A stretch of 21,533 bases of DNA, from positions 1 to 21,533 of the IMG/VR virus record IMGVR_UViG_3300009285_008332. One strand, written 5' to 3'. This document shows positions 737-20,321 of the stretch, piece after piece. Source of the DNA: a virus. The notes beneath the pieces were generated by a model, which did no database searches, had not been told where the DNA came from, and saw only the letters and a program-made list of their open reading frames with translations. Positions within the stretch are counted from its first letter, which is position 1; each line of letters opens with the position of its first letter. A program made the position numbers and the translations under genes.

Positions 737-1137
737 TAGAAATCATCACTCCAGTACTTGTGGCATTCTTCAGTCAAGGTCAAGGGAGACTCGCCCATGT
801 TTATCACACGATAAATTGTACTGTATGAACGCTTCACTCTTTTACTTTCAGGTATCACGAACAATTTGTAACATTGAGCGTTAAAAACTTCTTGGATGAA
901 CTCTTCAGCTCTTAATAATTGCTCTAAAGCTTTACTTTCTCTTTTATTACTGTTTTTGTATTCTATGACGAAAAACGGGTGTGCATAATTCTTGACGTGG
1001 TATAACAGGTCTGGCTCGACACTTCCTTTAGAATAATTACATAATGGCTCTTTAGCACTCCACACGACATTATTGATGCCTATAAGGTGGGGGTGTCGTA
1101 AAAGCTGGTTTAGTGTGTGTTCATGACTGTTTCTCAT
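736..1137 (-). CDS. Small PD-(D/E)XK nuclease-like protein
   Basis: A 133-aa protein from the ATG at 1137. That start has GGAGG 5 nt upstream and overlaps the preceding stop as ATGA; an in-frame ATG at 1149 has a weaker AGGAAAG. Residues 41-43 are EPD, followed by a strand ending in FFVIEYK, so D43 and E59-x-K61 form the D...ExK signature of the restriction-endonuclease-like fold. A helix follows (residues 69-83). Such domains are found in resolvases, restriction enzymes and repair nucleases. It has no recognisable DNA-binding domain. It is coupled to the transglutaminase-like gene before it and the metallophosphoesterase after it. The fold call is moderate; no specific function can be given. 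Confidence 0.6.
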   Translation of the reverse strand: MRNSHEHTLNQLLRHPHLIGINNVVWSAKEPLCNYSKGSVEPDLLYHVKNYAHPFFVIEYKNSNKRESKALEQLLRAEEFIQEVFNAQCYKLFVIPESKRVKRSYSTIYRVINMGESPLTLTEECHKYWSDDF

Positions 1138-1967
1138 TGCTTCCTCCATTCTTTCCTGCTAAAATCTGTGCTGTTTTGACTCCACGTCCAGTCTTCATTA
1201 AAAGTCCACCAAATAGTTCCGTAAGTGCTGTTGTACTTGTGAGGCAGAATCCCGAAATCAGAAATTGCGTCTTCAAGCCAAAACGTCCCCTCAACCCCAA
1301 ACCATTCAAGCTCGTTGCCTAGCCATAACAAGTAGAAATGCCCTTCTTTATACGTTGGTACACCTTTATTGTTGATGTTTCCACATACGCATTTTAAACG
1401 GTGTTTGTGACTTTCCCACCAGCCTTCATCCATGAATGCTTGACGAATAATGAAGTATTCAAGAATGCTGTAATCATCACAATCCCCAATCTTTTCGTTA
1501 AGTGTTTCTTCAGGACTGTTCCACTTCTCACTTTTGTCAAGCAAGTACTTAAACTCCTTTTTGTCAAACTTGTCTTTAAGCCAGTGCATCACTGCCAACA
1601 CCGTCTGTTCTGGAGTGCTTCTAACCACTTCTAAGGCAACTTTTTCTATTTCAGGTATTTTCTTGTATGCCAGGTATTTTCTTATGTCTTGCCGTTTAGG
1701 AGCGGCGTAAAACACTTGGTTTAAACTCCACTTACCATTCCAGTAAAGCACGTCCATAACATCAACTTTTTTAGGCACCATGAGTTTAGCCTGTTCTAAC
1801 TCCCCTTCAACACTTGAAAGTTCCAAACGTAACAAGTTCAAGCTATTATTAAGAACAAGATTCTCATCACTCAATAAATTGTTTTGTGAAGAAAGAAAGC
1901 GTAACTTGTCACTAGAGCCTGAAAGGTACAGAAACCATTTACTGAAAACCTCAGTCAGTTTCATCAT
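1134..1967 (-). CDS. Transglutaminase-like cysteine peptidase
   Basis: A 277-aa protein. Residues 20-65 are helical and probably coiled coil. A linker follows, and then a transglutaminase-like core: GDCDDYS at 161-167 with catalytic Cys163, EGHFYLLW with His210, and an acidic residue in the VEGTFW strand near 226. This is the Cys-His-Asp/Glu order of papain-like transglutaminase peptidases. No signal peptide is evident. The start could be Met1 (1967) or Met2 (1964); GAGGTGG lies just upstream and fits Met2 better. It follows a small membrane protein gene. Some archaeal virus lysins (the PeiW/PeiP pseudomurein peptidases) belong to this superfamily, so a role in envelope opening is possible but inferred. 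It could equally be a virion-maturation protease. Confidence 0.75.
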   Translation of the reverse strand: MMKLTEVFSKWFLYLSGSSDKLRFLSSQNNLLSDENLVLNNSLNLLRLELSSVEGELEQAKLMVPKKVDVMDVLYWNGKWSLNQVFYAAPKRQDIRKYLAYKKIPEIEKVALEVVRSTPEQTVLAVMHWLKDKFDKKEFKYLLDKSEKWNSPEETLNEKIGDCDDYSILEYFIIRQAFMDEGWWESHKHRLKCVCGNINNKGVPTYKEGHFYLLWLGNELEWFGVEGTFWLEDAISDFGILPHKYNSTYGTIWWTFNEDWTWSQNSTDFSRKEWRKQ

Positions 1968-2011
1968 CCACCTCTTCTTTTATCTAAAACTACAAACGCC
2001 CTTTTTACTGT

Positions 2012-2031
2012 TTTAAAACTATTTAAAACTA
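2012..2031 (-). promoter_or_regulatory. Tandem 10-bp TA-rich repeat, candidate promoter/operator
   Basis: Two perfect adjacent copies of a 10-bp unit, TAGTTTTAAA on the minus strand, lie in the 64-bp gap between the 57-aa gene and the transglutaminase-like gene. Each contains a TATA-like TTTTAAA. The downstream copy is about 50 bp before the start codon, which would allow an archaeal transcription start and a short leader carrying the GAGGTGG SD. One repeat overlaps the stop of the 57-aa gene. A promoter function is inferred. Confidence 0.4.
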
Positions 2032-2202
2032 TTCACTTCTGTGCTTAAGCCAGTTCAACAACATCTCCATTAAAGGCACGAAAGCCAAAAACGCAGGGTT
2101 TTCACCGTACACGCTTAAGCTTCCCGCAACCAAAATGATTACCAAACTCTTACCACCTTTCACTAATGTTTTTTTCCAGTCATAACTGTTTTTTTTAACC
2201 AT
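2029..2202 (-). CDS. Small membrane protein, holin-like (57 aa)
   Basis: The start ATG is at 2202 with GGAGG 8 nt upstream, and the stop TAG is at 2029. The protein has a basic N-terminus (MVKKNSYDWKKTLVKGGK), one hydrophobic segment at about residues 19-32 (SLVIILVAGSLSVY), a second mildly hydrophobic stretch at about 37-51, and a basic C-terminus (WLKHRSE). This suggests one or two membrane helices. It sits between the receptor-binding fibre gene and the transglutaminase-like peptidase, where lysis genes often lie, so a holin-like role is possible. Size and topology are the only support for that. Coding status is supported by the SD and by filling an otherwise empty gap. Confidence 0.7.
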   Translation of the reverse strand: MVKKNSYDWKKTLVKGGKSLVIILVAGSLSVYGENPAFLAFVPLMEMLLNWLKHRSE

Positions 2203-2214
2203 GCTTCATTCCTC

Positions 2215-4164
2215 CTAAGCCTTGTTTGCATAACTTGTTGTGGCGCCACTAGGTATTAACATCTCAATGAAAGTTCCCGCAATTTTCGCAGACGTACTTA
2301 TGTGTACTGCGTAAGTTCTGAAACCGCCAACGAAAGGCGTTTTAATATCCACTCCTGCCATGGCTACATCCCCTGCCGCGGCATTCGCGGCATGCATGTT
2401 ATTTATTATCGATCCACCAACCATCGGTGCCACACCACTGTAACTCGCGTACAAGAACGGCTCAATATTGGAGAGATTTAAGTCCCCAACAAAGTTTACT
2501 CCCGCTTGAGTTATGAAACCTGTACGCCTCGCGGCAGTGTCTGAAGAATAATTATTGAAGTCTACGTAAAAGTTTGGACTAGTCCCACTGGTCGCCACGG
2601 CATTACTGCTAGTTGCGCACTCATACCTTTTGAACATTCCATTCTTTCTCCACAAGTCCTCAGTTGCGTAACTTCGTTGATCAAAAACCTGACTTGATAA
2701 AACAACCGAGTCATTAAGCGATAACACGTCAAGTATTTTGACCTCATGATATGCTTCTTCCTTACACTTCCTAGAAACTCGCAAGTGAGGATAGTCCACG
2801 TCTATAGTTTGCCCACTAGTGCTGACTAGAAGAAAGTAAAGCTCCCCACCACTACCATCCACTCCCGCTACACCACTAACGTAGTCTCTCCAGTTACTAC
2901 AACGAACCCCACCTTGCAGATCGTTTCTCTCCCACTTACCAAGACGGTAATTAAACACGTAACCTCTAATAGTTGATTGACCAGTAGTGTTTGGCAGGTA
3001 AACTATTATATCTTCTATCACGCTTCCTGCCACGTCAACATTAAACTTACCCCTAACCTGAATATAGTTCGGGCTGGCACCAGTAATGTTCACTTCAGGA
3101 GCTCCCTGTGCCCAACAGCTACCGTAACCCCCATTAGTGAACTCAGTCATGCTCGCACCAGTAGTCACTGGGTTCGCCGCGCTGTTGTGAAACCATAAAG
3201 TTCCAGTGGCCGTGCTAGGATTGCTTGCTCCACTGAAATCCATCTTGTAATAACACCCCTCCTCACTTTCTGCGTACTTGCTTCCAAGAGTCACGCTACC
3301 AATATCGATCACGCTAGCACCGCTCGTTACCGCCATGCTATGCCACCAGTACGCTTGACCACCAGTACCACTAGGACTACCTATACTAAACGTGGTCGTG
3401 CCCGTAGTTTCATAAAATCTACCATTAGCAATACACGCACCACTATTAATCACGAACTGGTCGGCATCAAGACTACTTCCAGCAATAACCTTAGAATAGT
3501 TATGATCAAAAAGCACTCCACTGGCCTGAACTTCATTCTGGAATAAAACACACCACCTTGCAAGACCCCCACTAATGTATCTCGCACCTCTAGCAATTCC
3601 ACTTATGCTAAACGAGTTCGCATCATTACTCGTCGAGGCTGCTTGTAGCCATGCACCGCTCGTGAAATCCCACACGTCAATCTCACACCTCGCACTGGAA
3701 TCCGCCGCACCCCCCCTATCTAAAACCTTTCCAGTCATGTAAAACCACGCCCAACTCGTACCAGTAGGCAAGTAATGCTCATGCATGAACATCACCGCAC
3801 CATTAACAGGAGCGGCAGCCGCGCTATTACTCCCCGTTATTTTAGTGCTGTCATCAACCCATAAACTACCATACTGCGAACTTGTTAACTCGTTAACTAT
3901 GCTTCCTGGAGGGTAAGGACTTGTTATCTCGCTGCTTGAGCTACCCACATTCAAGTAATACACTGCACTCCCGATGCTTGGACTTCCACAACCACTAAAG
4001 TCAACAGTGTAAGGACTGCCAAGAGTCGTTAATGCTTGACTAACTTCATAACCCCAAATCACCCCTTTAGGATTAAAAAACAATTGTGCGGGACCGCTCT
4101 GCCATTGCTGAGTCATGTCCCCCGCTCTTAACTTGTCCCCACTTGCCAAAAAAGGATACGTCAT
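2215..4164 (-). CDS. Tail fibre / receptor-binding protein with internal duplication
   Basis: A 649-aa protein rich in Gly, Ser, Thr, Asn and aromatic residues, predicted almost all beta. It holds two related units. Residues 52-102 (starting YTVDFSG, ending YGSLW) align with 306-351 (starting YKMDFSG, ending YGSCW). Each is followed by an ITG turn and a carbohydrate-binding-module-like beta-sandwich (about 139-226 and 367-466). A third beta-rich region (about 480-649) closes the protein. The place after the tape measure, hub and distal tail genes fits a host-recognition fibre or tip protein. The start at 4164 follows GGGAGTGAT in the end of the previous gene. No trimerisation or chaperone domain is recognised, and the ligand is unknown. 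Confidence 0.7.
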   Translation of the reverse strand: MTYPFLASGDKLRAGDMTQQWQSGPAQLFFNPKGVIWGYEVSQALTTLGSPYTVDFSGCGSPSIGSAVYYLNVGSSSSEITSPYPPGSIVNELTSSQYGSLWVDDSTKITGSNSAAAAPVNGAVMFMHEHYLPTGTSWAWFYMTGKVLDRGGAADSSARCEIDVWDFTSGAWLQAASTSNDANSFSISGIARGARYISGGLARWCVLFQNEVQASGVLFDHNYSKVIAGSSLDADQFVINSGACIANGRFYETTGTTTFSIGSPSGTGGQAYWWHSMAVTSGASVIDIGSVTLGSKYAESEEGCYYKMDFSGASNPSTATGTLWFHNSAANPVTTGASMTEFTNGGYGSCWAQGAPEVNITGASPNYIQVRGKFNVDVAGSVIEDIIVYLPNTTGQSTIRGYVFNYRLGKWERNDLQGGVRCSNWRDYVSGVAGVDGSGGELYFLLVSTSGQTIDVDYPHLRVSRKCKEEAYHEVKILDVLSLNDSVVLSSQVFDQRSYATEDLWRKNGMFKRYECATSSNAVATSGTSPNFYVDFNNYSSDTAARRTGFITQAGVNFVGDLNLSNIEPFLYASYSGVAPMVGGSIINNMHAANAAAGDVAMAGVDIKTPFVGGFRTYAVHISTSAKIAGTFIEMLIPSGATTSYANKA

Positions 4165-4165
4165 A

Positions 4166-4297
4166 CTAAATCACTCCCTCATTCGTTTGAAAAATTTTCT
4201 TTAAAAACCTTTTGATCTTTACCTTATCTGGATGTCCGCTGGTAACATCAAGAACCACCCTTAAAAACTGTTCCGCCATCAAGTCATACTTATCCAT
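4166..4297 (-). CDS. Small hypothetical protein (43 aa) between tail genes
   Basis: The start ATG at 4297 overlaps the upstream stop as TAATG, so translation is probably coupled. It ends one base before the fibre gene's ATG, and its last codons contain that gene's SD. The protein begins MDKYDLMAEQFLRVVLDV and has a basic middle (DKVKIKRFLKKIF); it is probably two short helices. No family is recognised. The stop-start overlap at one end and the tight junction at the other argue that it is real. Confidence 0.55.
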   Translation of the reverse strand: MDKYDLMAEQFLRVVLDVTSGHPDKVKIKRFLKKIFQTNEGVI

Positions 4298-4656
4298 TAA
4301 AAAGTTACAAACCTCAACTCTATCTGAACCTCACTACTCCCATCAAAAACGATAGGTGCAGATAAAGGCTCACGATTAAAACTCTTACCACCCGTGCTCG
4401 CCGCGAAAGAGGCAAACTCTTGAACAGACAAGCCACTCAATACAGTGCTTGTGAAGTCCACAGTGTAAATCGCTTGCTGTGAAGTACTCAAGTCCTTAGA
4501 AACCCCTCCTCTACTGCTGATCTCGGCAACAAGCCCTGTTTGGCTAACCAAGAAAGTTCCACTACCACTACCCAAACCAATGAATCCAGGACCTGTAATT
4601 CCACTACCTCCAAAATTAGCAGCCATTACTTCTTTACAGTAAGTGTTCACACCCAT
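4297..4656 (-). CDS. Distal tail / fibre-attachment beta-sandwich protein
   Basis: A 119-aa protein from the ATG at 4656, preceded by GGGTGACT. A TTG four codons upstream is less likely. The pattern is a glycine-rich start (FIGLGSGSGTF), a central strand pair (AIYTVDFTSTVLSGLSVQEF), an FAAS/GGKSFNRE segment, and a final amphipathic strand (VQIELRFVTF). This resembles small beta-sandwich tail proteins, seen in many tailed viruses near the fibre genes, that carry a GxGT start and an 'E-x-G/A-x-F...R' middle. It lies between the hub and the receptor-binding protein, which fits a distal tail or fibre-linking part. The family call rests on pattern only. Confidence 0.5.
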   Translation of the reverse strand: MGVNTYCKEVMAANFGGSGITGPGFIGLGSGSGTFLVSQTGLVAEISSRGGVSKDLSTSQQAIYTVDFTSTVLSGLSVQEFASFAASTGGKSFNREPLSAPIVFDGSSEVQIELRFVTF

Positions 4657-4690
4657 ACAGTCACCCAATTATTTTCAATATGTAAATTAA

Positions 4691-6187
4691 TTACCATGTT
4701 CCACCACTCACCAAGACAGAATAGCTCAAGTCAGTATCGTCACCTAAAACCCCCAAGAACTCCGAGCCCGAAGCGTCCTCAATCAATCCATAAATGTCAT
4801 CATCAAGCCTGTAACTGCTTCCTATACCCCTAGACCTCACGTACCATTGAGACTTTACCCCTACACTTCCCACAGCATTAACCAGCCGGGTGAAAACGTC
4901 ATCAGTATCAATATCGTAAGCTTGTAAACGCTTAATGTCAACCACTACCTGCCTCAAGTTATCCATCAAAGCAGTATGGTGCTCGCCAATCCTCAAAGTG
5001 ACAACCTCACCCTTCTGCAAGCTATCAGTAGTCAAGTTATAAATTGCTTCTTGAATCAAGAAAGTCTCGCTATTAACGTTCTCCCAAGGCAAGTCCACAA
5101 CAATAGTATTCCCGTTACTAAAACTCTGAGTGGTATTCAAAACGATATTCCCCTGCCGTTTAGGATCCTTATTCACCGCCAGCTCTGCCTTAGCCAAGTT
5201 AACCGCTTGTTGAGGATCCTTAATCTCCTTATTCTCAATAACCTTCTCACGAACACCATAACTTGACTGGCTAGCACCATCCTCACTCATCTTGATAATA
5301 GGCCTGCCACGATCATAAGCGACACTAACCGCGTTACCACTAGTCGGCCCGCTAACGAAAATAATTTTTTGCTCATCATAATCAACAAAGTAATCCGTAC
5401 TAACAGGGATCGCGGTAGTCATCTCGAAAATCGCACCTCTCTGTATTGTTCCCGCATTCTTAACCTCACAATTATGAGGCTTATAACTTAAGGTATAAGA
5501 GCTTCCCGCACCATCAGCCGTAAAAGTGTCAATCCACCCACTCAAGTACTTATCACCATAAACCCAAATCTTGTTAAACATGTCATTATTGTTCAAGCTA
5601 ATACTAGACCTCACTATATTAGTGTTGTTTGCCACGAAACCACTACTCACGCTTCCAGAAGGAGCGAAATGCAAGTCTTTATCTTCATCAACCCAGAAGT
5701 CATGCTCCACAATTCCTGCAAGCTCTTTAATACACTCCCAAACAGGCCTTCTTTTAAAACTGATAAAAGGCAAGGTCTTACTGGTCACTTGAACATTAGT
5801 GTACGTCAATCCTGGAGCGTACTTGTCCAGCAAGTCAGTAATTATAGTGCTGATCTCCTGAGAGGTATAATTCTCTAAAGCGTGAACGTCCATCAAGAAA
5901 CTAGAGTAATCCCTACCATACACTTCAATCTCCTCACTGTTTGACTCACCACTGAAACTCACGTCTTCAACACGACCCACGAAAATCCTGTTAACAAGAG
6001 GAGTGACCGTGTCATAATACACTATTATCTCCTCACCAATGCCGAAATCCGTCTTTTTATCACCCGCTTTATTCTTGAAACTAATCGTGGCCATGCTAGG
6101 TCTAGTATTAATGTTCTTACGAACCAGACAACGCACGCTCTCCGTGTACTCAGTACCACCAATCGTGATCTTAAAATAGTTAGCCAT
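4691..6187 (-). CDS. Baseplate hub / tail-tip protein (gpD/gp27-like)
   Basis: A 498-aa protein beginning MANYFKITIGGTEYTESV, with an early beta domain containing GEEIIVYYD, IFVGRVEDVSF and EIEVYGRDYSSFL (about 50-100). This strand order is typical of the hub domain in T4 gp27, phage D/late control and siphovirus tail-tip proteins. A helix-rich insert follows (about 105-155, ISTIITDLLDKYAPG, VWECIKELAG). Then come further beta domains to about 400 and a C-terminal region ending in GDDTDLSYSVLVSGGTW. It overlaps the tape measure stop by 8 bp and uses GGTGAGTT as SD. It probably forms the trimeric ring closing the tail tube. Confidence 0.75.
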   Translation of the reverse strand: MANYFKITIGGTEYTESVRCLVRKNINTRPSMATISFKNKAGDKKTDFGIGEEIIVYYDTVTPLVNRIFVGRVEDVSFSGESNSEEIEVYGRDYSSFLMDVHALENYTSQEISTIITDLLDKYAPGLTYTNVQVTSKTLPFISFKRRPVWECIKELAGIVEHDFWVDEDKDLHFAPSGSVSSGFVANNTNIVRSSISLNNNDMFNKIWVYGDKYLSGWIDTFTADGAGSSYTLSYKPHNCEVKNAGTIQRGAIFEMTTAIPVSTDYFVDYDEQKIIFVSGPTSGNAVSVAYDRGRPIIKMSEDGASQSSYGVREKVIENKEIKDPQQAVNLAKAELAVNKDPKRQGNIVLNTTQSFSNGNTIVVDLPWENVNSETFLIQEAIYNLTTDSLQKGEVVTLRIGEHHTALMDNLRQVVVDIKRLQAYDIDTDDVFTRLVNAVGSVGVKSQWYVRSRGIGSSYRLDDDIYGLIEDASGSEFLGVLGDDTDLSYSVLVSGGTW

Positions 6188-7787
6188 AACTCACCAAACC
6201 CTTAAACTGCCTAGTCAATACCTTACTTACTTTGTCCGCCACATCCATAGCATCATTAGCATAAATAACTATACTCGCACCCATGCCCCCCATGCTCCTG
6301 GCAGGATCTCTTAAAGCAACCAAGGTATCTCTCGGGTCAGTCTCAATCATGCTACCATCAGGCCTCAATACGGCATCTCTCACTTTCTTAGGTCCTGGAT
6401 CACCACCAGACTTCTTAATATCTCTTCTTATATCAGACTCTAGCAGTCTAGACATGTTACCCGTGCCCGACTTTGCACGCTCTAGAGCGGCATACTTTTT
6501 ATCTAGAGGATTCGCAACTGCCGCTTGTAGTTTGGTCAAGCTTGACGCGATCATCTTCTCAAAAAGCATTGGGACATTCTCCCCCATACTTTTAACCTTA
6601 TCCTCGGCAACCTGCATGCTCTTTTGCAGCTCGAGAAATCGCTTAGCACCACTAACCGTGCTAGTATCAAGCCTTTCTAGCTCGGCTCGATTCTTAATGT
6701 ACCCCTCACTAAGCTTAAATAAGCTTTCTATCTGAAAGTTCTGAGTTCCAGTAACTTTGCCTATGGCATCATCCCAGTCAAGAGAAGACTGAGTACTTAA
6801 AAAAGTCCCTTCAGCATTCACTTTATACGCTTTAGTTAAGGCATCAACTCCTTCCGCGCTAGCCTCTCTTTTCTTACCAAAAACTGCTTCTTTCCCACTT
6901 AAAACTCTAGGTATGTCAACAAGCGCCTTCAAGTCATTAAGAATTCCTGATCCTATAGACTCTTTTGCCACAGTTGCTAACTGTTCAGTAACCTCTTTAG
7001 TTGATGACCCTACACTATTCAAAACATCAATTAAAGACTCGAAAATCGGGATTACTCCCTCACCAATATCAACCTTCAAGTCATGAAGCTTGGTCTTTAA
7101 TCTATCGACCTTCTCATTAAAACCTATCTCTATATCATTACCGACCCGTTTAGCACTCTCTCCAAGCTGGTCCTGAACCGCGATCTGGAAAGCGGTCTTC
7201 TTCTCTAATTCAGTAAGCTCTCTACCTGTCGCTCCAATCTTTACTTTATAATCTTCATATGCTTTACTCGAGTCAACAATTATTCCTAACTGGCGAAGCA
7301 TTACATTACTTTGACGGCCAACACCCTCAGTTATCAACTCTATACTTTCAGTAACACTTTTCCCAGCAACCTGACCAACAATGATTGACTGCCTAAACAT
7401 TTCAGGAAGTCCCCCTTGATCAATACCCATAAGCATAGCCTTATTAGCACTACTCATGAGATCAAACTCGCTCGCCAGTCCTTTAGTACTCTCTTTTAAG
7501 CGAAACAAAAGTTTAGGATCGGCCATGCGCTCAAAACCATCTCTTATCGGCTTCATTTGCATAGCTGCTTCAACACTTGCCTTCGTGATCGCTGCGAGAC
7601 CTCCAACTACTATTCCTGCCATGGCAATAGAACCTAGTCTCAACCCAGAAACTTCCTTACCCATTCCCTTAACGCTTTTTTCTGCTTTATTGAATGTCTT
7701 ACTAAACTCGTCAACAGCTTTAATAACTATACTAACACTCGCACCACCAGCCGCTCCTCCGAGAAAGCTACTTAATAATCCTGCCAT
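6180..7787 (-). CDS. Tail tape measure protein
   Basis: A 535-aa, mostly helical protein directly after the frameshifted chaperone and before the hub, the standard tape measure position. A hydrophobic, glycine-rich N-terminus (about 1-18) is followed by an IVIKAVDEFSKTFNKAEKSV helix and a second hydrophobic segment (about 53-72, IAMAGIVVGGLAAITKAS). Then comes the conserved tape-measure head with MKPIRDGFERMA (about 78-89), a GRQSNVMLRQLGI segment and a long heptad-rich middle. In the family, length correlates with tail length at about 1.5 angstrom per residue, so a tail near 80 nm or less is expected. The start follows GAGGTAG and abuts the TAG of the frameshift product. Confidence 0.85.
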   Translation of the reverse strand: MAGLLSSFLGGAAGGASVSIVIKAVDEFSKTFNKAEKSVKGMGKEVSGLRLGSIAMAGIVVGGLAAITKASVEAAMQMKPIRDGFERMADPKLLFRLKESTKGLASEFDLMSSANKAMLMGIDQGGLPEMFRQSIIVGQVAGKSVTESIELITEGVGRQSNVMLRQLGIIVDSSKAYEDYKVKIGATGRELTELEKKTAFQIAVQDQLGESAKRVGNDIEIGFNEKVDRLKTKLHDLKVDIGEGVIPIFESLIDVLNSVGSSTKEVTEQLATVAKESIGSGILNDLKALVDIPRVLSGKEAVFGKKREASAEGVDALTKAYKVNAEGTFLSTQSSLDWDDAIGKVTGTQNFQIESLFKLSEGYIKNRAELERLDTSTVSGAKRFLELQKSMQVAEDKVKSMGENVPMLFEKMIASSLTKLQAAVANPLDKKYAALERAKSGTGNMSRLLESDIRRDIKKSGGDPGPKKVRDAVLRPDGSMIETDPRDTLVALRDPARSMGGMGASIVIYANDAMDVADKVSKVLTRQFKGLVSYG

Positions 7788-8197
7788 CTACCTCTTCCTC
7801 TTAACTCGTTCATACTCTCTTTCCTTACGCTTTTGGTCATCATTCCATTCCTGTAATAACCCGTGTACGTCATCATAAGGCATCTCATCTACTTCTGAGG
7901 GTTTCCATCCGAACTCTCTAGCACACCAGTACTTGATTCTCCACTCACTTCTTTTTTTTTGTTGTCTTTGAAAAGAAAAGGGTTAAGCTCGATGACTGCC
8001 TTAATAACTTCACTCATCTTTTCAGGAAGAGAATCATCCATGGCCAACTCATCAAGGTATGCCTGATCCTCCTCACTTAGGCAGGCACGAATGACCTTTT
8101 CAGGATCGCCATTAATCAATACCTTGAAATAATTCATCGCGCTAACTTGCTTAACAGTTACTGTCTTGCCCGCCACGTCTATTAGCTTAACTTTCAT
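7788..8197 (-). CDS. Tail assembly chaperone, long -1 frameshift product, GT-like (136 aa)
   Basis: This product reads residues 1-82 of the short chaperone, slips -1 at the A9 run, and continues from 7952 to the TAG at 7788. The added 54 residues begin RSEWRIKYWCAREFGWKPSE, continue through VDEMPYDDVHGLLQEWND, and end in a strongly basic tail (KRKEREYERVKRKR). The hydrophobic start, tryptophans and a D/E-M-P-x-x-D/E...L pattern look like the T extension in lambda-type gpGT chaperones, which binds tail tube protein and tape measure. The extension uses sequence that otherwise codes nothing (7788-7888) and ends exactly at the tape measure ATG. Frameshifting has to be shown experimentally, but the frame arithmetic (+1 in coordinate, -1 in reading) is clear. 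Confidence 0.75.
7889..8197 (-). CDS. Tail assembly chaperone, short (zero-frame) product, G-like
   Basis: A 102-aa acidic, helical protein. It begins MKVKLIDVAGKTVTVKQVSA, has ACLSEEDQAYLDEL around 38-51, and ends in a low-complexity tail (KKKEVSGESSTG...). Size and position between tail tube and tape measure match lambda gpG-type chaperones, which coat the tape measure during tail assembly and are absent from the virion. The start has GGTGGTGATTC just before it, lying across the tail tube stop. Codons 80-82 are the A9 run where ribosomes may slip -1 (separate entries). Confidence 0.75.
   Translation of the reverse strand: MKVKLIDVAGKTVTVKQVSAMNYFKVLINGDPEKVIRACLSEEDQAYLDELAMDDSLPEKMSEVIKAVIELNPFLFKDNKKKEVSGESSTGVLESSDGNPQK
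7952..7960 (-). promoter_or_regulatory. A9 slippery sequence for -1 ribosomal frameshifting
   Basis: Nine consecutive A (minus strand) read as AAC AAA AAA AAA GAA in the zero frame. A tRNA-Lys pair can re-pair perfectly after a one-base backward slip, giving AAA AGA AGT. It lies 82 codons into the chaperone gene. I see no obvious SD-like stimulator or clear pseudoknot. Transcriptional slippage on A9 would give the same product. Confidence 0.7.
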
Positions 8198-8200
8198 GAA

Positions 8201-9199
8201 TCACCACCCGTTATACTTGAACGTGCTACTGTCCTCAAGAGCGTCACTTATTTGAGGAGTGATCGTCAAGTCAAAAGCTTGAACTCCCCCGAGCTCGGTA
8301 GGAGCAGTCATGTCACTAAGTCTACAACCACTAAAAGTCCACCTTAAAACCCTACTTCCAGTACTTAACGTTCCTAAAAGCATCATGTTAAAAGTGCTCC
8401 CTCCAATAAAGTACTGGTCATAGAAAGTTTTCGCATCCGCACTATCCGCATTACTAGATAAAGAGATACTGTAATCTCTATTTCCAGGAATTGGATCTCC
8501 AACAGTTCTCGCGCCATCAAGATAGTTTGGAACATCCAAATTATTATTCACGTCAACAGTCAATGTCTTGAAATTACTAAATGTAGTCCCTGAAGGAATG
8601 TGCACTGCGAAATCACTAAACCTGAAAGGCCTCCCAGTATCCGCGGTCACGCTTGTCGTCGCACCACTAGAGAAAGACAGTTGCCTTGCCACGTAACTAA
8701 CACTACAGCTCGCGAGACCCCCTTCCTCAAGTGACAAGCTAAAATCCTTAACGAAACAGCCATTTAGCGTTCTCACGAAATTCAAGCCACTACCCGCGAC
8801 AAGAACACTCTTACTATCCTCCAAACCAAAAGCTGGCAAGCTAGTATTAGGGTGCTCGAGAACCGCACCGTCATTATTCGTCTCCACAAAAGCGTGAGTG
8901 TACGGGCTTGGCGATCCTGCATCAACACAACTACCCAAAACGAACTTTAAAATCCTGAAGTCCTGAGGATTATAAGAAATAGTTCCGTCAAAAGTCTGTG
9001 CCAGCTCCGTGAACAACTGCACGTTACGACTCGCCGCCCCCGCATACCTTACAGGAGTCACGTTCTCATTCTCATCAATACTGTGACTTGTGACGATTCC
9101 AGGCCACCAAGCACCACTATTAGTTATCGTTGTCCCGCTGGCATTAAAGCCAACCAACTTATTCTGATCCCCGACAAATTTGTAACCGATCTTAATCAC
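8201..9199 (-). CDS. Major tail tube protein
   Basis: A 332-aa beta-rich protein between the terminator/connector genes and the tail chaperone, the usual tail tube place. It has two halves, each with an edge-strand and helix pattern (TFDGTISYNPQDFRILKFVLG near 70-90, then ISLSSNADSADAKTFYDQYFIGG near 245-268). Both resemble the tube fold, where a 'tDASI/D.. F...l' helix packs on the sandwich. The closing LTITPQISDALED is typical of the last strand. No ATG is available: the likely start is GTG at 9199, with an in-frame TGA two codons upstream. The 332 residues are long for a single-domain tube protein, suggesting a duplicated fold or an outer Ig-like domain. Confidence 0.75.
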   Translation of the reverse strand: MIKIGYKFVGDQNKLVGFNASGTTITNSGAWWPGIVTSHSIDENENVTPVRYAGAASRNVQLFTELAQTFDGTISYNPQDFRILKFVLGSCVDAGSPSPYTHAFVETNNDGAVLEHPNTSLPAFGLEDSKSVLVAGSGLNFVRTLNGCFVKDFSLSLEEGGLASCSVSYVARQLSFSSGATTSVTADTGRPFRFSDFAVHIPSGTTFSNFKTLTVDVNNNLDVPNYLDGARTVGDPIPGNRDYSISLSSNADSADAKTFYDQYFIGGSTFNMMLLGTLSTGSRVLRWTFSGCRLSDMTAPTELGGVQAFDLTITPQISDALEDSSTFKYNGW

Positions 9200-9377
9200 C
9201 TCTCAATTCTTTTTTATTCTTTTTCATAACCTTCTCCGTAAGCGTGAAACCTTGATACTTATCAAGAAGCTCTTTAGCAAGCTCCTCAGTAAGCTCGTAA
9301 GTCCCCCCACTCTCAAAACACATGTTAAGCTCCCAAACTTTAGCCTTTTCATAACCATCATACCTTACTAAAACCAT
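9192..9377 (-). CDS. Small conserved tail-region protein (61 aa), unknown function
   Basis: The ATG at 9377 is preceded by GGAGGAGGT, 8 nt away, one of the best SDs in the window. The sequence starts MVLVRYDGYEKAKVWELNMC, then GGTYELTEELAKELLDKYQGF, and ends basic (MKKNKKELRGD). The pattern 'xxY/F-E-(L/V)-T/S-E-E-x-A-x-x-L-L' followed by G-F recurs in small proteins near phage head-tail junction genes, but I cannot name a family. It overlaps the tail tube gene by 8 bp, so the two may be translated together. Confidence 0.55.
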   Translation of the reverse strand: MVLVRYDGYEKAKVWELNMCFESGGTYELTEELAKELLDKYQGFTLTEKVMKKNKKELRGD

Positions 9378-9396: not shown

Positions 9397-11556
9397 TTAC
9401 TGCATCACGATCTTGTAGCTAAGCTCTGCCACCTTCTGGTGTATTCCTCCCTTCCCATCTTCATCAATATTAGTACAGTTAACCAGCATGAAATCAAACA
9501 ATTCAGCACTCACGCTCTCACCACTACCGAACTGGTAAGTTCTCAAAAAGTTATACACTTCATCCCATAAAACATCCCGTTGCTTAGTACTCTTGCTAAA
9601 TATCCTGACCTCGAAATTAACACTCGCTAAAGTCTCTTCACTTCTTAAACCGAGACGGGTATGCCTCATACTAGTGACTCCAACCACGATCAAAGGAAAC
9701 TCGGCCAAGCGTTGAGGAAAGCTAGTACACACGAACTTACTATTAGCGTTGCGACTGGCACTAACTGGATCAGTAATGTTATTGATTAACGCGTCACGAA
9801 TCCAGACCGTGAAGTCATGAGTCATGGTCGCTGGATCAACAGTAGGCTTAGTAACTGTTAAAGTACTTGCGGCATCATCCTGCCTTCCTCCAGAACTGTT
9901 CGTGGCAAACACGGTAACCGTCTCAGCACTCACTATTCCTATACTGTGCCCGCTAATCGTGACACTATACGTTGATCCTGTAGTGTTCGTCATCGCGAAA
10001 CTTTCACCATTAACTTCCACAGCCGCCTCTGAAGGAGTGTTAGTTATTGATGCCGTAATAGTCACTGTACCAGTACTCTTGATACTTGTCGAGCTTAAAG
10101 TAATATCACTTATCACTGGAAGAACCCCTGTAGTAGTAAAACTGGCTTGAGAGGAAGCCACTGAATTATTCCCAGGATCAACACCTCTTAAAACGTAATA
10201 GTACAGCGTGCTTTGCTTCAAGCCATCAAGCGTGACGGCATGCGCGGTCCCAATCATTCCCCCAACCTTATCTTTATAACTTCCTCTACCGTACATGTCA
10301 GCCCAGTCATCATCTCTCAAATAACTCATTCCGTATGTTGATGGAGTGTCCGTGCTTATTCCCGTCGCTTCACTAAGGTAAACTTCACTAGTCTGTGGCC
10401 TGTTACTATTCCAAGTAATAACGCAACCACTACTTGAAGGAGTCGCGGATATGGTATCAATAGTGTTAGGAAAGTTCGGTGATGATAACGCATTGGTTCT
10501 GGCAAGAGTCAAGCCTACATATTGTGGTATTGTCTCTGTTGATGACGTTGATTCTGAAGTGTCCACGTTACCTAATGCAGCTCCGTTGTTTCCCGCAAAG
10601 TAATCATTATCAGATGACGAGCCGTTGTCAGTGTCAATTATGACAAAAGCCGGACTACCCGTTGGCAGAGCGCTAAATTTCGTCCCGACATAATCATTAT
10701 AAGACGAAGTGATTTTCGCCCCCACAACAGCATTCTGAAAAACGTGCTTAGCAGAGACTCTACCATTGTCACCACCGAAGACGTTCCCACTCACCACCAC
10801 CGTGACATCAGTGCTTGCACAAGTCACGATAACAGTATCCGATGCCGTTGTCGAATTAAAAGACTCAAACCAGTTATTAACTATGTTTGCAGTGCCAGAA
10901 TTGCTACTGAATGTTGCCGCCCTTCTACCACCCCCAGTGAAAAGATTCCTTCTGACATTTATCACCCCATAGGGGTGAGTTAAGCTACCCATTACAGGAG
11001 TTAACGCGTTAGTATCAAATACGCAACCTTGAATGTTTATCGGATGCCCACTCACCCCTTGCGTTACCCGTATCAAGTTAGTGCCCTCACTGTTGACACT
11101 TCCGAAATAACAGTCAGAAATCGTTATGTCTACATCGTTCGTTTCGGCAACGTCTATCGCGTTTCTGTTGTTAAAAAGGAATCTGTTCTTATTAATGCTT
11201 CCAATCTCCCCACCAGTACGCATGGCAAGACGTAATGCTGCAGTGGCACCACTACTATTCATCAAGTTACAGAACTCGAACTTGTTACCTGTCGTGTACG
11301 TGTTGAAAAGGATCGAGCTCCAACCGAAAACTGTCGCTTCTGGCCCGCTCGCCCGCCACGTGATCCTGCTTCCTAAAGCTCCAGCAGAAACAAGTACTCC
11401 ACTATAAACAGCAACAAAGTAGTTTCCAGCAAAACTGATTGTCGCCCCAGGATTGACAGTTACAACACCCCCACTCAGGATGTTCACGTTACCAACGATA
11501 TAGTCTCCATCAGCAAAAGTTTGTGCAGTAGTTATGTTCCCAGTCCAGTTAGTCAT
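9397..11556 (-). CDS. Fusion of beta-helix/FN3/Ig-like adhesin to a tail terminator-like domain
   Basis: A 719-aa protein. Residues 1-340 look like a right-handed parallel beta-helix: an LSGGVVTVNPGATISF entry motif, then repeated short N-x-F/N-x-W rungs (NKFEFCNL, NKNRFLFNNRN, RRNLFTGG, NNWFESF, SGNVFGGDNG). Residues 365-476 resemble a fibronectin type III domain (SEVYLSE, TLYYYVLRGVDPGNNS). Residues 480-572 form an Ig-like domain. From Met578 to 719 is a separate domain, starting THDFTVWIRDALINNITDP and including FPQRLAEFPLIVVGV and VNFEVRIFSKS, typical of tail terminator/completion (gpU-like) proteins. It occupies the terminator slot between the gp10-like and tail tube genes. ATGA overlaps the previous stop. 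No SD precedes Met578, so one polypeptide is expected. Confidence 0.7.
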   Translation of the reverse strand: MTNWTGNITTAQTFADGDYIVGNVNILSGGVVTVNPGATISFAGNYFVAVYSGVLVSAGALGSRITWRASGPEATVFGWSSILFNTYTTGNKFEFCNLMNSSGATAALRLAMRTGGEIGSINKNRFLFNNRNAIDVAETNDVDITISDCYFGSVNSEGTNLIRVTQGVSGHPINIQGCVFDTNALTPVMGSLTHPYGVINVRRNLFTGGGRRAATFSSNSGTANIVNNWFESFNSTTASDTVIVTCASTDVTVVVSGNVFGGDNGRVSAKHVFQNAVVGAKITSSYNDYVGTKFSALPTGSPAFVIIDTDNGSSSDNDYFAGNNGAALGNVDTSESTSSTETIPQYVGLTLARTNALSSPNFPNTIDTISATPSSSGCVITWNSNRPQTSEVYLSEATGISTDTPSTYGMSYLRDDDWADMYGRGSYKDKVGGMIGTAHAVTLDGLKQSTLYYYVLRGVDPGNNSVASSQASFTTTGVLPVISDITLSSTSIKSTGTVTITASITNTPSEAAVEVNGESFAMTNTTGSTYSVTISGHSIGIVSAETVTVFATNSSGGRQDDAASTLTVTKPTVDPATMTHDFTVWIRDALINNITDPVSASRNANSKFVCTSFPQRLAEFPLIVVGVTSMRHTRLGLRSEETLASVNFEVRIFSKSTKQRDVLWDEVYNFLRTYQFGSGESVSAELFDFMLVNCTNIDEDGKGGIHQKVAELSYKIVMQ

Positions 11557-11924
11557 AACGCCTCACGAACTGCCACAGCAATTATCTTCCGGACCTCATC
11601 AGCACTTCTTTCCTTAGTATTCCTGAAATGCCGTCTAGGACTGATACGACTCGTTCCGTACTCTAAAAACTCGGCGTACTCGACATTACTACTAACCTCC
11701 CCCTGCAAGTCACTAATACTAGAGTGAACACTATTCATGAAGCGCCCAGTATCAAAACTGCGAGTCTCCGCCTTCCTCCCAGCAATACTCAACTTGACTT
11801 CCCCCTCAACAAATAACGTGGCCTTACTAACACCCCTGCTCACTCCCTTGAGCGCGGCCGCACTCTTTTCCTTAAGCGCTCTCTGAACTTCAGGAATCCC
11901 CCTAACATCTATAGAGAAAGTCAT
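11553..11924 (-). CDS. HK97 gp10-like head-tail connector / tail completion protein
   Basis: A 123-aa protein with an N-terminal strand (SIDVRGIPEVQRAL), a central helix (LKGVSRGVSKATLFVEGEVK), a SFDTGRFMNSVHSS segment and the family hallmark VEYAEFLEYGTSRISPRRHFRN (about residues 80-102), followed by a C-terminal helix. HK97 gp10-type proteins join tail to head after packaging. It overlaps both neighbours by 4 bp. Confidence is high from the YA-x-x-x-EYGT...P-R-x-F motif. Confidence 0.85.
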   Translation of the reverse strand: MTFSIDVRGIPEVQRALKEKSAAALKGVSRGVSKATLFVEGEVKLSIAGRKAETRSFDTGRFMNSVHSSISDLQGEVSSNVEYAEFLEYGTSRISPRRHFRNTKERSADEVRKIIAVAVREAL

Positions 11925-12349
11925 ACGGCACCATACCCTAAATTCTGGCTTCTCAAAAAAACCTTCTTGAAAACAGTCGTGCCACTCACGAAATAAGGAA
12001 TGACCCCCATGGAAAGAACGTCATACACGCTACCATTATTAATCTTAACAGTACTATTCGTGTCAATACTCACGCTCCCCGCCAAGAACATCTTAATATC
12101 CCCTCTCCACAAGCGCCCCTCCTTAACGTACTGAGCGTCCTCACTAGAATACCTGTCACTTAATGGCAAGAAAAAACCAACACCACTCACTCCCGTGCCA
12201 CTAGCAGTTATTGGGTATTCCTCATCATAACTCGTCCCAGAATAAAGCAAGCCACCACCACTCCAGTTAGTAATGACGAAACCAGTACCAGCACTCTCTA
12301 CAGAATTAACGAAATCCTCTCTCAGACCCGCAGGATCAATACCTACCAA
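11921..12349 (-). CDS. Probable head completion / head-tail stopper protein
   Basis: A 142-aa, mainly beta protein that appears to start at a TTG (12349), with GAGG 7 nt upstream. No ATG is in frame. Motifs include GFVITNWSGG, a GVGFFLPLSDRYSSEDAQYVKEGRLWRGDIKMFLAGSV strand series and a VYDVLSMGVIPYF strand; the 'G-x-x-x-x-x-Y/F-L' ending is common in stopper-type proteins (SPP1 gp16, lambda FII). The position between the adaptor-like gene and the gp10-like gene fits. Sequence alone does not prove the family. It could start elsewhere if an unusual codon is used. Confidence 0.55.
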   Translation of the reverse strand: MVGIDPAGLREDFVNSVESAGTGFVITNWSGGGLLYSGTSYDEEYPITASGTGVSGVGFFLPLSDRYSSEDAQYVKEGRLWRGDIKMFLAGSVSIDTNSTVKINNGSVYDVLSMGVIPYFVSGTTVFKKVFLRSQNLGYGAV

Positions 12350-12779: not shown

Positions 12780-13145
12780 TCACTCAAAATACACATCTAT
12801 TCTTCCAACAGTACCCGCAGTCACGCTACCAAGACCGATACCACTAAACATTAAAGGCCCATTCATTAAAGGCTTAATCACATGACTGAAATTCGCACCA
12901 CTCAAAACGTTCACGCCATGATGCGCGAAAGTTCTAGGATAAAAAACAGTTGCTAAAGTGCCACTAATGCTTGTGAAAGTGAAAGCTTGATTATCCACAT
13001 CACTTATGACAACACTTCCATTAGCCCAGCTAGACGATTTAAAGACCACCTTATCAACATGCCCGGTGATGTCCCCTTCAGCTCCACTGGAGTTAAAAAC
13101 GGCATTTGTTGAAGTGAATGATTGTGAAACGATATTAGTTCTCAT
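12780..13145 (-). CDS. Beta-rich virion surface/structural protein, unknown
   Basis: A 121-aa protein from the ATG at 13145. GGGAGGAGTT lies directly before it, so a TTG four codons upstream is part of the SD rather than the start. It is all beta, rich in S, T, G and V, with strands such as DKVVFKSSSWANGSVVISD and NGPLMFSGIGLGSVTAGTVGRIDVYFE. The final 'G-x-I-x-V-Y-F-E' edge strand recalls small capsid or fibre decoration proteins. It is the first gene after the candidate terminator. No named family is recognised. Confidence 0.5.
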   Translation of the reverse strand: MRTNIVSQSFTSTNAVFNSSGAEGDITGHVDKVVFKSSSWANGSVVISDVDNQAFTFTSISGTLATVFYPRTFAHHGVNVLSGANFSHVIKPLMNGPLMFSGIGLGSVTAGTVGRIDVYFE

Positions 13146-13174
13146 AACTCCTCCCAATACATTAAAACATTCTC

Positions 13175-13221
13175 AAAAAAGAGAAAAAAAAAATGATTGC
13201 GAAAGAACCTTTATCTTCCGC
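13175..13221 (-). terminator. Hairpin plus T-tract transcription terminator inside the structural operon
   Basis: On the minus strand, GCGGAAGA (13221-13214) can pair with TCTTTCGC (13206-13199), an 8-bp stem with one G-U pair and a 7-nt loop. Five bases later T10 (13193-13184), CTC and T6 follow. The stem includes the stop codon of the lectin-like gene. A bacterial polymerase would use the hairpin; an archaeal one may use the T-tract alone. It separates the capsid/decoration genes from the connectors and tail, so it probably lowers downstream expression. Confidence 0.6.
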
Positions 13222-13642
13222 TACCTAAAGCAATCCAGCTAAAAGCCTTGCTTGCAGTCACTCCAGCCGCTTGAAAGCTACCAACACCTCTAGTACCGCT
13301 CGCAACCCAAATACCCGTAGTCGCGTCATCATTGTGTGTTACGACAACCTGTGGGGTTCCAGCAAAAGCCTTGCCGAAAACAACCCAGACACTACTTCCC
13401 GCACCAAGAGTACCAGTACCGAACTGCGCAGTGTTACCACCAGCGAAAGGGCTCCCAGTGTAAGCTGTTGGGAAAGTCACGTCAACCTTATTACCACTAC
13501 ACGCGCTAGCGGCAAGCTCGGCATTACCAATCTCCCCCGCACCAACAGCAGTGGTCGCGCCACTAAGCAAAGCAAAAGTCCCACTTCCAGTAGCTGAAAT
13601 GTCAACAACCTTCAATTCATCTGTAGTAAATCCATCCCTCAT
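13211..13642 (-). CDS. Lectin-like capsid decoration or head-fibre protein
   Basis: A 143-aa protein. The N-terminal part contains SGATTAVGAGEIGNAELA (about 27-44), then a beta domain with KVDVTFPTAY, VWVVFGKAFAGTPQVVVTHND and a final AFSWIALGSGR. The pattern 'V-x-F-x-x-x-F-A-G-T-P-Q-V...W-x-A-x-G' resembles H-type-lectin-like C-terminal domains found on phage fibres and capsid decoration proteins. It comes immediately after the major capsid gene, so it may sit on the capsid surface and bind glycans. GAGAGG precedes the ATG. Function is inferred. Confidence 0.55.
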   Translation of the reverse strand: MRDGFTTDELKVVDISATGSGTFALLSGATTAVGAGEIGNAELAASACSGNKVDVTFPTAYTGSPFAGGNTAQFGTGTLGAGSSVWVVFGKAFAGTPQVVVTHNDDATTGIWVASGTRGVGSFQAAGVTASKAFSWIALGSGR

Positions 13643-14998: not shown

Positions 14999-15289
14999 CT
15001 AATAAATTATCTTACCCTTATCATCTGTTCTTGCCATGATGTGGGTTTCATTATTCTCCTTGAAAATAACGTACTTGTCATTAGTGACTCTTGCAGGAGT
15101 TATAACTCCTTTAGTCTCACTGATATTGTTCTTCTTTTTTTCTTTCAAAGATTCTAGTTCTGCTTTTGCTTTCTCAATTTTCAATCTTGATATTTCTTCT
15201 TGAATTCTTGAAAGTTCCGCTTTTAACATTTCTGAAGTCTCCTCTTCAGCTTCCTCTTTTTTTTCTTCTTCTTTCTTTTCCTTATCCAT
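14999..15289 (-). CDS. Nested in-frame scaffold protein (96 aa) from an internal start
   Basis: Within the protease-scaffold gene, the ATG at 15289 (residue 146) is preceded by a perfect GGAGG at 15302-15298, 8 nt upstream, the same spacing as the SDs of the 57-aa and 61-aa genes. Translation from here would give only the coiled-coil scaffold. Phage lambda uses the same arrangement (Nu3 nested in the protease gene C). The product starts MDKEKKEEEKKEEAEEETSE and ends in a 40-residue non-coiled tail that would bind capsid protein. Expression is inferred. Confidence 0.6.
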   Translation of the reverse strand: MDKEKKEEEKKEEAEEETSEMLKAELSRIQEEISRLKIEKAKAELESLKEKKKNNISETKGVITPARVTNDKYVIFKENNETHIMARTDDKGKIIY

Positions 15290-15724
15290 CTCGTTCTCCT
15301 CCGACTTAATACTGTTCTGTGCAGGCTTGAAAGTTGCACCCGCAATTCCAGGAGTGGGGGTGAAGCTCAACTCCAAGTACTCCAGTCCTTCTGCAATCAT
15401 GACCTCATCATCATCATTCTCTTTTACTATTCTCGCTGCCGTGGCGCCAACACTCACGGTTTCCAAAAGACCAGAATTTATCAACGCTTCCACTCGTGCG
15501 TCACTCACGACGCTCTCGAACTTGATCTTGTACTTCCCATCCTCGAAAACGCCTGTGCTTTCAAGTACTTTTCCAACAATGTTATCTACTTTACTCTCAT
15601 GATCTTTAAGCATCGGTCTACCCTTAAGAGAGTGATGGCTTTTCTCAAGTTCTTCTTTAGTGTACCTGATCTGGTTTCTACTAACCCCTTCTTCTATGGC
15701 GGTGCCTTTAATCTTTAGAGCCAT
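14999..15724 (-). CDS. Prohead protease fused to scaffold
   Basis: A 241-aa protein with two parts. Residues 1-130 form a herpes-like prohead protease: an early KGTAIEEGVSRNQIRYT strand, KGRPMLKDHESKVDNIVGKVLES with the histidine (His43) of a catalytic triad, LLETVSVGATAA with the candidate catalytic serine (about residue 93), and a LEYLELSFTPTPGIAGATF ending. Residues 146-200 are a highly charged coiled coil (KEKKEEEKKEEAEEET..., LSRIQEEISRLKIEKAKAELESLKEKKK) typical of scaffold. A GAGGTGACTG SD precedes Met1. The start overlaps the 72-aa gene's stop. A strong internal start at Met146 is given separately. Confidence 0.8.
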   Translation of the reverse strand: MALKIKGTAIEEGVSRNQIRYTKEELEKSHHSLKGRPMLKDHESKVDNIVGKVLESTGVFEDGKYKIKFESVVSDARVEALINSGLLETVSVGATAARIVKENDDDEVMIAEGLEYLELSFTPTPGIAGATFKPAQNSIKSEENEMDKEKKEEEKKEEAEEETSEMLKAELSRIQEEISRLKIEKAKAELESLKEKKKNNISETKGVITPARVTNDKYVIFKENNETHIMARTDDKGKIIY

Positions 15725-18426: not shown

Positions 18427-19506
18427 CTATTCTAAATCTTGAACTAGTGCCACTAGCTTTTTTGCGGAGTTCTCCCAAGTTAATTCCTTAAAACTCCCCC
18501 CACACTTTTTCCCTTTACTCTTGAATGCAGTTCTTAACGCACTTCTAAGCTCGGAAACACTTGGCTCGAGCCACTTAACACCCTCATAACTGAAATCCCC
18601 AAAAGCGGGAATGACCTCCCCTCCAACAATCCAGCCATTCTCCCCCGTGACGAAATCCGTCTGACCACCATAACTAGTAGTTATCACTGGCCTTCCACAA
18701 TGCAACGCCTCCAATGCTGGAAGGCCAAAACCTTCACTTTTACTTGGCATCACGAACACGTCACATAACTTGTACAAGCCATGCATGAACTGCCTAGGAA
18801 TCCTATCCATGAACAACACCACTTTAGGATTCGAACTAATTCCACACTTCACGAGTTCACGATCCACACTCCATCCTGGAGGGCAGTAAACCGTGTTGAC
18901 GTGAGCGAGAAGCCTCACAGGCTCGTCCTTAAACTCTTCATTGAACGCAATAATTAACTGTGCAAGACCACTTCTATCATTCATTCCATTAACCCATCCT
19001 TTACTGAATAAGAACGTGAAATCCGTACTTTTCAAAGACTTCAACTCCTCGGGAATCCCCCTTTGAGTGTTGAATAGTTTAGTGTCAACCCCGTGAGGCA
19101 GCAAGAATAACTTCTCTTCTTTCACCCCCCCTTTTAGCGCTGCATTCCAAACGTGCCGGCTAGGAACGAGAACCTTGCTCACTCGTTCATCATTGCAGTT
19201 CAATGCCCAGCTCGCAGGAATTTTATCCCCTTCAAAAACTAGAAATCCAAAGAACTTCTCGTGCCCTCTACTAAGGAGTCTAGGCCAGTAAGGTGGCTGA
19301 GCTATAGCCACGAGAACACCTCGCTCCTCAGGAACTTTTTTCAGTACAGAAATCAGTTCAGGAGAGGCATTAGGCGAGTGCTCCCAACCCACAGGTAAAA
19401 AAGTCTCACAAGCCACACTAGTTAATCGACTAGTGGCAAGAAGCAACTCTCTAGCATGCACCTCGTAACCCGAATCCCCCAACACGTTACCGAAAAAGTT
19501 TATCAT
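18427..19506 (-). CDS. Glycosyltransferase family 4
   Basis: A 359-aa GT-B enzyme that transfers sugars from nucleotide-activated donors. The N-terminal half carries an acceptor-side Rossmann fold starting MINFFGNVLGDSGYEVHARE. Donor-side signatures are LPHGVDTKLF (136-145), FSKGWVNGMNDRSG (about 167-180), and the E-x7-E-like motif SEGFGLPALEALHCGRPVITT (257-277). The length is ordinary for the family. It overlaps the GT2 gene as ATGA and ends the sugar cassette. Substrate is unknown; likely targets are virion proteins or surface polysaccharide. Confidence 0.85.
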   Translation of the reverse strand: MINFFGNVLGDSGYEVHARELLLATSRLTSVACETFLPVGWEHSPNASPELISVLKKVPEERGVLVAIAQPPYWPRLLSRGHEKFFGFLVFEGDKIPASWALNCNDERVSKVLVPSRHVWNAALKGGVKEEKLFLLPHGVDTKLFNTQRGIPEELKSLKSTDFTFLFSKGWVNGMNDRSGLAQLIIAFNEEFKDEPVRLLAHVNTVYCPPGWSVDRELVKCGISSNPKVVLFMDRIPRQFMHGLYKLCDVFVMPSKSEGFGLPALEALHCGRPVITTSYGGQTDFVTGENGWIVGGEVIPAFGDFSYEGVKWLEPSVSELRSALRTAFKSKGKKCGGSFKELTWENSAKKLVALVQDLE

Positions 19507-20321
19507 TCCAAAAACCCCCTTAAACGATCAGACACTCTCTTAACCCAAGCCAAACACAACTCGTGATCCCTCACCACCAGTTCTGAATAGTTAGGCCAGC
19601 GGCAACCCCCACTCGGGCAAGGAGCGTGCCAAGCAACCGCGCCAGTATCAACACGAATCTTCCAACCCGCCAGTAAAGCCTTAACACTAATGACTAACTC
19701 TTCTCTAAAACCAACAGGACTATAACCTATAGGGTAACTCACGTCTTCACCAAACATTTTTCTACGCATCAATGCATTACTCCTGAACTGGTGAGCAGGC
19801 AAAACCGTGCTCTCCACGTACAAGAAACCGCAATCATCATGATAATCCCTCACGTTACCCTCGGCATCCAGAACGATCTTATTAATCACGGGACTGGCAA
19901 AACGTGTCTCCCTACGAAAGTCAGGACCGCTAAAATTAGGAGTTACACCACTAGTGATCCCAACACCATCCCCCATGCACTTGACCAACCGCTCAATGTA
20001 GTCAGGCTCTAGAACGACGTCATCATCCAAGCGTAAAACGAACTCATTCTCAGGCCAAGGATCTTCATCAATCATTCTCTGCCTTGCCCTACACACCCCA
20101 TTACTCACGTCATCACGAATTATCTTAACTCCGTGACCTTCCTCCCTCAACCTGCCAACAATGTCCTGAAAAAACTTGCTCCCTTGAACTAGCGGCGTGC
20201 CATAAGCGTTATCCAAGATGAACACGTCAAAATCCTGAAAAGATTGCTTTCTCAGACTGTGTAAGTTAATTGCCAACTCACTAGTTCTATCCCTTGACGC
20301 AATATGAATCGTGACTCTCAT
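19503..20321 (-). CDS. Glycosyltransferase family 2
   Basis: A 272-aa GT-A enzyme. Residues 1-12 (MRVTIHIASRDR) begin the nucleotide-binding fold. LHSLRKQSFQDFDVFILDNA (21-40) and the metal-binding RLDDDVVLEPDYIERLV (97-113, DDD at 99-101) are diagnostic. A FREELVIS segment and a WHAPCPSGGCRWPN region near the C-terminus complete the acceptor side. No transmembrane anchor is seen, so it is probably soluble and acts in the host cytoplasm. The start overlaps the 58-aa gene's stop as ATGA. Confidence 0.85.
   Translation of the reverse strand: MRVTIHIASRDRTSELAINLHSLRKQSFQDFDVFILDNAYGTPLVQGSKFFQDIVGRLREEGHGVKIIRDDVSNGVCRARQRMIDEDPWPENEFVLRLDDDVVLEPDYIERLVKCMGDGVGITSGVTPNFSGPDFRRETRFASPVINKIVLDAEGNVRDYHDDCGFLYVESTVLPAHQFRSNALMRRKMFGEDVSYPIGYSPVGFREELVISVKALLAGWKIRVDTGAVAWHAPCPSGGCRWPNYSELVVRDHELCLAWVKRVSDRLRGFLE

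Follow-up and report, generated by a model that had tools for sequence, protein, structure and literature searches.

The window (the whole stretch of DNA analysed, a virus record of 21,533 bases that is probably a fragment) carries its head and tail genes on the minus strand. In the direction of that strand, the head genes comprise a portal fused to a MuF-like domain (18384-16477), the major capsid protein (14519-13656), an adaptor-like gene (12776-12393), a stopper-like gene (11921..12349, assigned from position and strand pattern, with no family match) and a Neck1/tail completion gene of the HK97 gp10-like type (11553..11924; phrog_5 E 2.7e-16, PF04883 E 0.0012). Position also points to a possible head-protease-like gene at 14999-15724, and it was the basis for naming every window gene that lacked a family match. 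Directly downstream of Neck1 lies a 719-aa gene (9397..11556), followed by a 61-aa gene (9192..9377), the tail tube gene (8201..9199; PF18906 Phage_tube_2 E 2e-14, phrog_290 E 2.3e-16), a 102-aa gene, a tape-measure-like gene (7787-6180), a gene for a YQBQ/prophage-tail-like protein (6187-4691) and two likely tail-tip genes. That the tape measure is short (535 aa) and that no sheath gene lies beside the tube points to a modest tail of the non-contractile type.

Further genes flank or interrupt these modules. The tail module ends with a transglutaminase-like protein (1134-1967, minus strand; PF04473 E 1.7e-4), and a calcineurin-like phosphoesterase gene (2-736, minus strand; PF00149) is cut by the window end and interrupted on its C-terminal side by an apparent intein start (CFDDQTEILTENGWRLFKDL). 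Two small orphan genes (13211-13642 and 12780-13157, minus strand) lie between capsid and adaptor; the former matches an H-type lectin (E 0.09) and a gp53-like fibre C-terminus (E 0.92) marginally, and its product could be another surface decoration. Upstream of the portal, a glycan cluster (18427-21533 of the window, minus strand, and 1-7708 of the near-identical contig L002) encodes at least four glycosyltransferases, a nucleotidyltransferase, a methyltransferase-like gene, an NAD-dependent epimerase and a radical SAM protein. The virus may thereby glycosylate its own virion proteins, speculatively including the Ser/Thr-rich arm described below. In the closest capsid relative (L032, 59%), which ends before the terminator, a 1070-aa fibre-like frame (5136-8348) lies between portal and protease, and this unusual siting of fibre-like genes among the head genes may be repeated within the virus group.

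The 719-aa gene occupies the minus-strand frame 11556..9397, a single stop-free frame of 721 codons, and its ATG start and the Neck1 stop codon overlap in the 4-nt sequence ATGA. GC content is 43-46% across its three parts and similar to that of the neighbours, which argues against a chimera. Thus the fused frame proposed in an earlier sequence-only reading, which gave no strand, is real and lies on the minus strand, joining an adhesin-like N-terminal part to a tail terminator. That reading divided the protein into 577 and 142 residues; the division fits the terminator core, as predicted helix 1 begins at residue 582, just past M578, and because the 142-aa remainder matches the size of the stand-alone terminators that fill the same slot in relatives. 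An internal start would instead make two proteins, but the ATG at codon 578 shows no Shine-Dalgarno pairing (+0.6 kcal/mol, as against -5.7 kcal/mol for the gene's own start and a median of -6.7 for window gene starts), and in-frame internal starts at -6 kcal/mol or better are not enriched (3/38 in the fusion gene versus 18% in other genes). The gene thus probably makes one protein, with no sign of an internal terminator start. Moreover, no second terminator gene was found in the 21.5-kb fragment by a six-frame ORF search with profiles that are themselves weak.

The gene sits in the terminator slot, with Neck1 (phrog_5) upstream and the 61-aa gene and PF18906 tube downstream. The same succession, with a Neck1-like gene (about 145-169 aa), a terminator (138-145 aa), a 52-62-aa gene and the tail tube, was found in Bacillus phage Jayan, Rossellomorea phage phiT1, Thermoanaerobacterium phage THSA-485A and several IMG/VR loci, all of which carry a counterpart of the 61-aa gene. 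A protein of 150-159 aa takes this place in the haloviruses HCTV-2 and HHTV-2 and in their IMG/VR relatives, and in most of them a ~110-aa gene and then the tube follow. The window thus repeats the bacterial gene order, save for the 577 residues ahead of the terminator. The slot assignment of the sequence-only reading is therefore borne out, and the search for unfused versions that it proposed yielded stand-alone terminators of 138-159 aa in relatives of the same gene order.

Structural comparison identified the C-terminal domain (residues 578-719; 9397..9825, minus strand). Its AlphaFold2 model (mean pLDDT 62, which is middling) has the order helix-strand-strand-helix-strand-strand and was built on an alignment of six syntenic halovirus proteins, so that syntenic terminators were included and circularity is a concern. 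In a Foldseek search of the PDB with this model, the best 50 entries were all terminators or their counterparts in tail-like machines (best E 1.3e-5). VIA-align returned Z scores of 12.7 to 8.2 for lambda gpU, T5 p142 and the proteins of phage 812, Chi and Mu, a range that also takes in a gene transfer agent, a pyocin and the archaeal virus HFTV1, whose terminator protein scored Z 12.3 with TM 0.71. The matches in BFVD included halovirus and phage terminators, among them a 156-aa HHTV-2 protein of the same length as the one in the terminator slot of that virus. A full-length single-sequence AlphaFold2 model, poor as it is (pLDDT 34), still recovers strands 623-632 and 644-652 and helix 657-673; the recovery of two strands and the second helix argues against pure circularity. 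On the predicted structure, then, residues 578-719 are a tail terminator, as had been read from the sequence.

At the sequence level the evidence for this identity is suggestive. A profile of nine syntenic bacterial terminators ranked residues 578-719 best of 13 window segments (E 0.0019 versus 0.31 for the next), and the fusion frame was the best of 101 six-frame ORFs for both the bacterial and the halovirus syntenic-terminator profiles, with weak scores. Pfam and PHROG gave no terminator-family match for the domain, hhalign gave too faint a signal from the single sequence to establish terminator homology, and sequence searches of IMG/VR, GTDB genomes and INPHARED returned no relatives of it. 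The single IMG/VR match (L007) was set aside as chance, since it runs antisense to a 5139-aa frame.

The 577-residue arm divides into three parts: i) a probable right-handed beta-helix (residues 1-345; 10522..11556, minus strand), rich in N, G, S and T; ii) an FN3-like domain (residues 370-475; 10132..10449, minus strand); and iii) a putative Ig-like, Ser/Thr-rich stalk (residues 477-570; 9847..10128, minus strand). The first part contains nine rung-like motifs against a mean of 1.8 in shuffled sequences (0/5000 shuffles as high, for a pattern chosen post hoc); eight of the nine are spaced 24-30 aa apart between residues 119 and 312, and no other window protein reaches this density. HMM libraries, PDB sequences and a fold search gave no match to a beta-helix in residues 1-345, nor did a seven-rung profile find one in the PDB. 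The beta-helix of the sequence-only reading thus stands as a repeated motif, without the backing of a family or fold match. The FN3 claim is supported by Pfam, as PF16656 (Pur_ac_phosph_N, the FN3-fold N-domain of purple acid phosphatase) matches residues 370-475 at E 5.5e-6 with 27.3 bits, just under its cut-off of 30. The stalk was read by eye, has no family match and lies in a segment (residues 477-577) with 16% Ser and 21% Thr. Matches of the FN3/Ig region by phmmer to designed 'Pizza' repeat proteins were judged a compositional artefact. The full-length model, made without relatives, gave no confident structure for residues 1-577, and a Foldseek search with it was meaningless. No homologue of the arm was found in IMG/VR, GTDB genomes, INPHARED or PLSDB, and none of the whole fusion in the first three; therefore conservation provides no evidence on the fusion.

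The joining of a genuine terminator to an adhesin-like arm is a real and unusual architecture. Lambda gpU, T5 p142, SPP1 gp17 and HFTV1 gp29 share the fold of the 142 residues and the slot by Neck1 and tube (fold likeness was tested for lambda, T5 and HFTV1, and taken from the literature for SPP1). However, these proteins are about 117-180 aa long and lack an adhesin-like arm, whereas here the core is preceded by 577 residues. Linares and Breyton point to larger terminators with added domains (PMC11784142), and such domains occur on phage 812 gp99, in which a small beta-sandwich binds the sheath (PMC12886913), on phiCD508 gp53 and on the PVC cap; unlike the fusion, all three are under 285 aa and none is adhesin-like. 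The phiCD508/phiCD27 terminator gp53 (273 aa, matched core 132-255) was also weighed as a precedent for an adhesin-terminator but dismissed, since its N-terminal half looks weakly terminator-like, which makes a duplication likelier than an adhesin.

Parallels in display come from separate neck proteins. XM1 gp40, a presumed host-sensing collar spike, rests with its Ig-like domains on both terminator and head completion protein (PMC10457771); it resembles the proposed arm as a neck spike but is a separate trimeric protein outside the terminator chain. The neck passage structures (NPS) of lactococcal 936/TP901-1 phages are large neck modules, two groups of which have a C-terminal beta-helix (PMC6669499). 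Unlike the fusion, an NPS is encoded by a separate gene, consists of a BppU-like base and a coiled-coil fibre and is modelled as a collar at the connector; its domain order is also the reverse, with the base N-terminal (and a carbohydrate-binding module at the other end) rather than C-terminal as in the fusion. Compared with the NPS of 936/P335 phages, Pfam reported no BppU-like beta-sandwich, coiled-coil fibre or carbohydrate-binding domain in the fusion protein. The R4C adaptor likewise carries an Ig-like domain N-terminal to a neck ring protein (PMC10276861), but the ring is that of the adaptor and the domain is single, small and thought to be structural. In HFTV1 the capsid turret proteins gp30 and gp31 are numbered straight after the terminator-like gp29 (PMC12494034), a parallel in gene position. 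As a large protein with a terminator-like domain, BFVD A0A6J5L8B8 (uncultured Caudovirales phage, 946 aa; Foldseek E 3e-5, TM 0.51, rank 25) may on this structural match be a second terminator fusion. A search, not exhaustive, of the literature on Ig-like and beta-helix terminators found no adhesin-terminator fusion described. The claim of the sequence-only reading that the fusion has no common precedent thus holds for a covalent fusion among solved structures (the longest terminator chain among the PDB matches listed is 284 aa). Yet spikes docked at the neck, whiskers with a beta-helix and terminators that carry additional domains are known, and BFVD contains the 946-aa protein.

We propose that this single protein builds a hexameric terminator ring from which about six arms point outward at the neck to bind the host, a reading we regard as somewhat probable. 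The last 142 residues, with the fold and slot of a terminator, would by analogy with the family form a hexameric ring at the top of the tail tube, closing the tube and linking it to the head. Each arm would exit from the outer face of the ring as an Ig-like stalk, an FN3-like domain and a beta-helix head, because the terminator helices lie outside the ring. In phage 812 (PMC12886913) and R4C (PMC10276861) the terminator is a hexamer atop the tube, with a sheet that lines the channel and helices outside. Moreover, T5 p142 was soluble with an N-terminal tag, while a C-terminal tag was suggested to fold back into the lumen (PMC11784142). As an N-terminal tag is tolerated in T5 and the helices are external in 812 and R4C, an N-terminal arm is likely to be directed outward; six arms of ~60 kDa would be too large for the channel. 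Arranged around the neck, the arms would make the first, reversible contact with the host, most likely through a surface glycan or an S-layer, ahead of engagement by the tail tip. That the arms point outward, number six and bind the host is inferred from the geometry of the ring and the domains of the arm, and neck display is the most economical reading of the protein. The interpretation in the sequence-only reading, which placed about six adhesins around the neck, is partly supported.

The arm might instead be a structural clamp over the stopper, adaptor or portal-vertex capsid that stabilises the head-tail joint and does not act as an adhesin. We think this unlikely, although structural roles have been proposed for the Ig domain of the R4C adaptor (PMC10276861) and for the neck decoration proteins of phage 812 (PMC12886913), and the R4C authors doubted that the Ig-like domain at its neck takes part in adsorption (PMC10276861), which counts against the adhesin reading. 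Nevertheless, 577 residues with a probable beta-helix far exceed the known neck Ig-like and decoration domains, and the beta-helix domains at the neck of 936 phages look like modules that bind or cleave glycans (PMC6669499). Still less probable in our view is that virions carry few or no arms, through cleavage by a virion protease, for which the possible head-protease-like gene at 14999-15724 would be a candidate by position, or through shorter products that would retain the terminator and make the hexamers arm-poor. The in-frame starts M434 (-6.8 kcal/mol) and V481 (-6.0 kcal/mol) have moderate Shine-Dalgarno energies, and 936 phages partly decorate their tail tubes via a frameshift (PMC6669499), but start sites of this strength are no commoner in the fusion gene than in other genes, and M578 lacks Shine-Dalgarno pairing. 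That the fusion is a metagenome assembly error is highly improbable: the gene is known in one copy only, contig L002 ends within the capsid gene and no second contig spans the junction, but the gene fits the operon at both ends with continuous frame and composition, and an insertion would require two joins that preserved both frame and gene order.

Under outward display, a siphovirus-type virus would have merged its terminator with a full adhesin and built six receptor-binding arms into the head-tail joint, an arrangement that, together with the 946-aa BFVD protein, may be recurrent; we judge the case for this broader proposal to be evenly balanced. If true, it would constitute a route to neck display that dispenses with whiskers, collars and docking proteins. 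Because relatives have short terminators that stand alone, the gain of the arm can be compared directly. Should the arms indeed be displayed, host contact can be encoded in the ring at the head-tail junction, with a copy number fixed at six and without separate attachment proteins, and there would be reason to screen neck proteins, beyond tail tips, for host-binding proteins in viral genomes.
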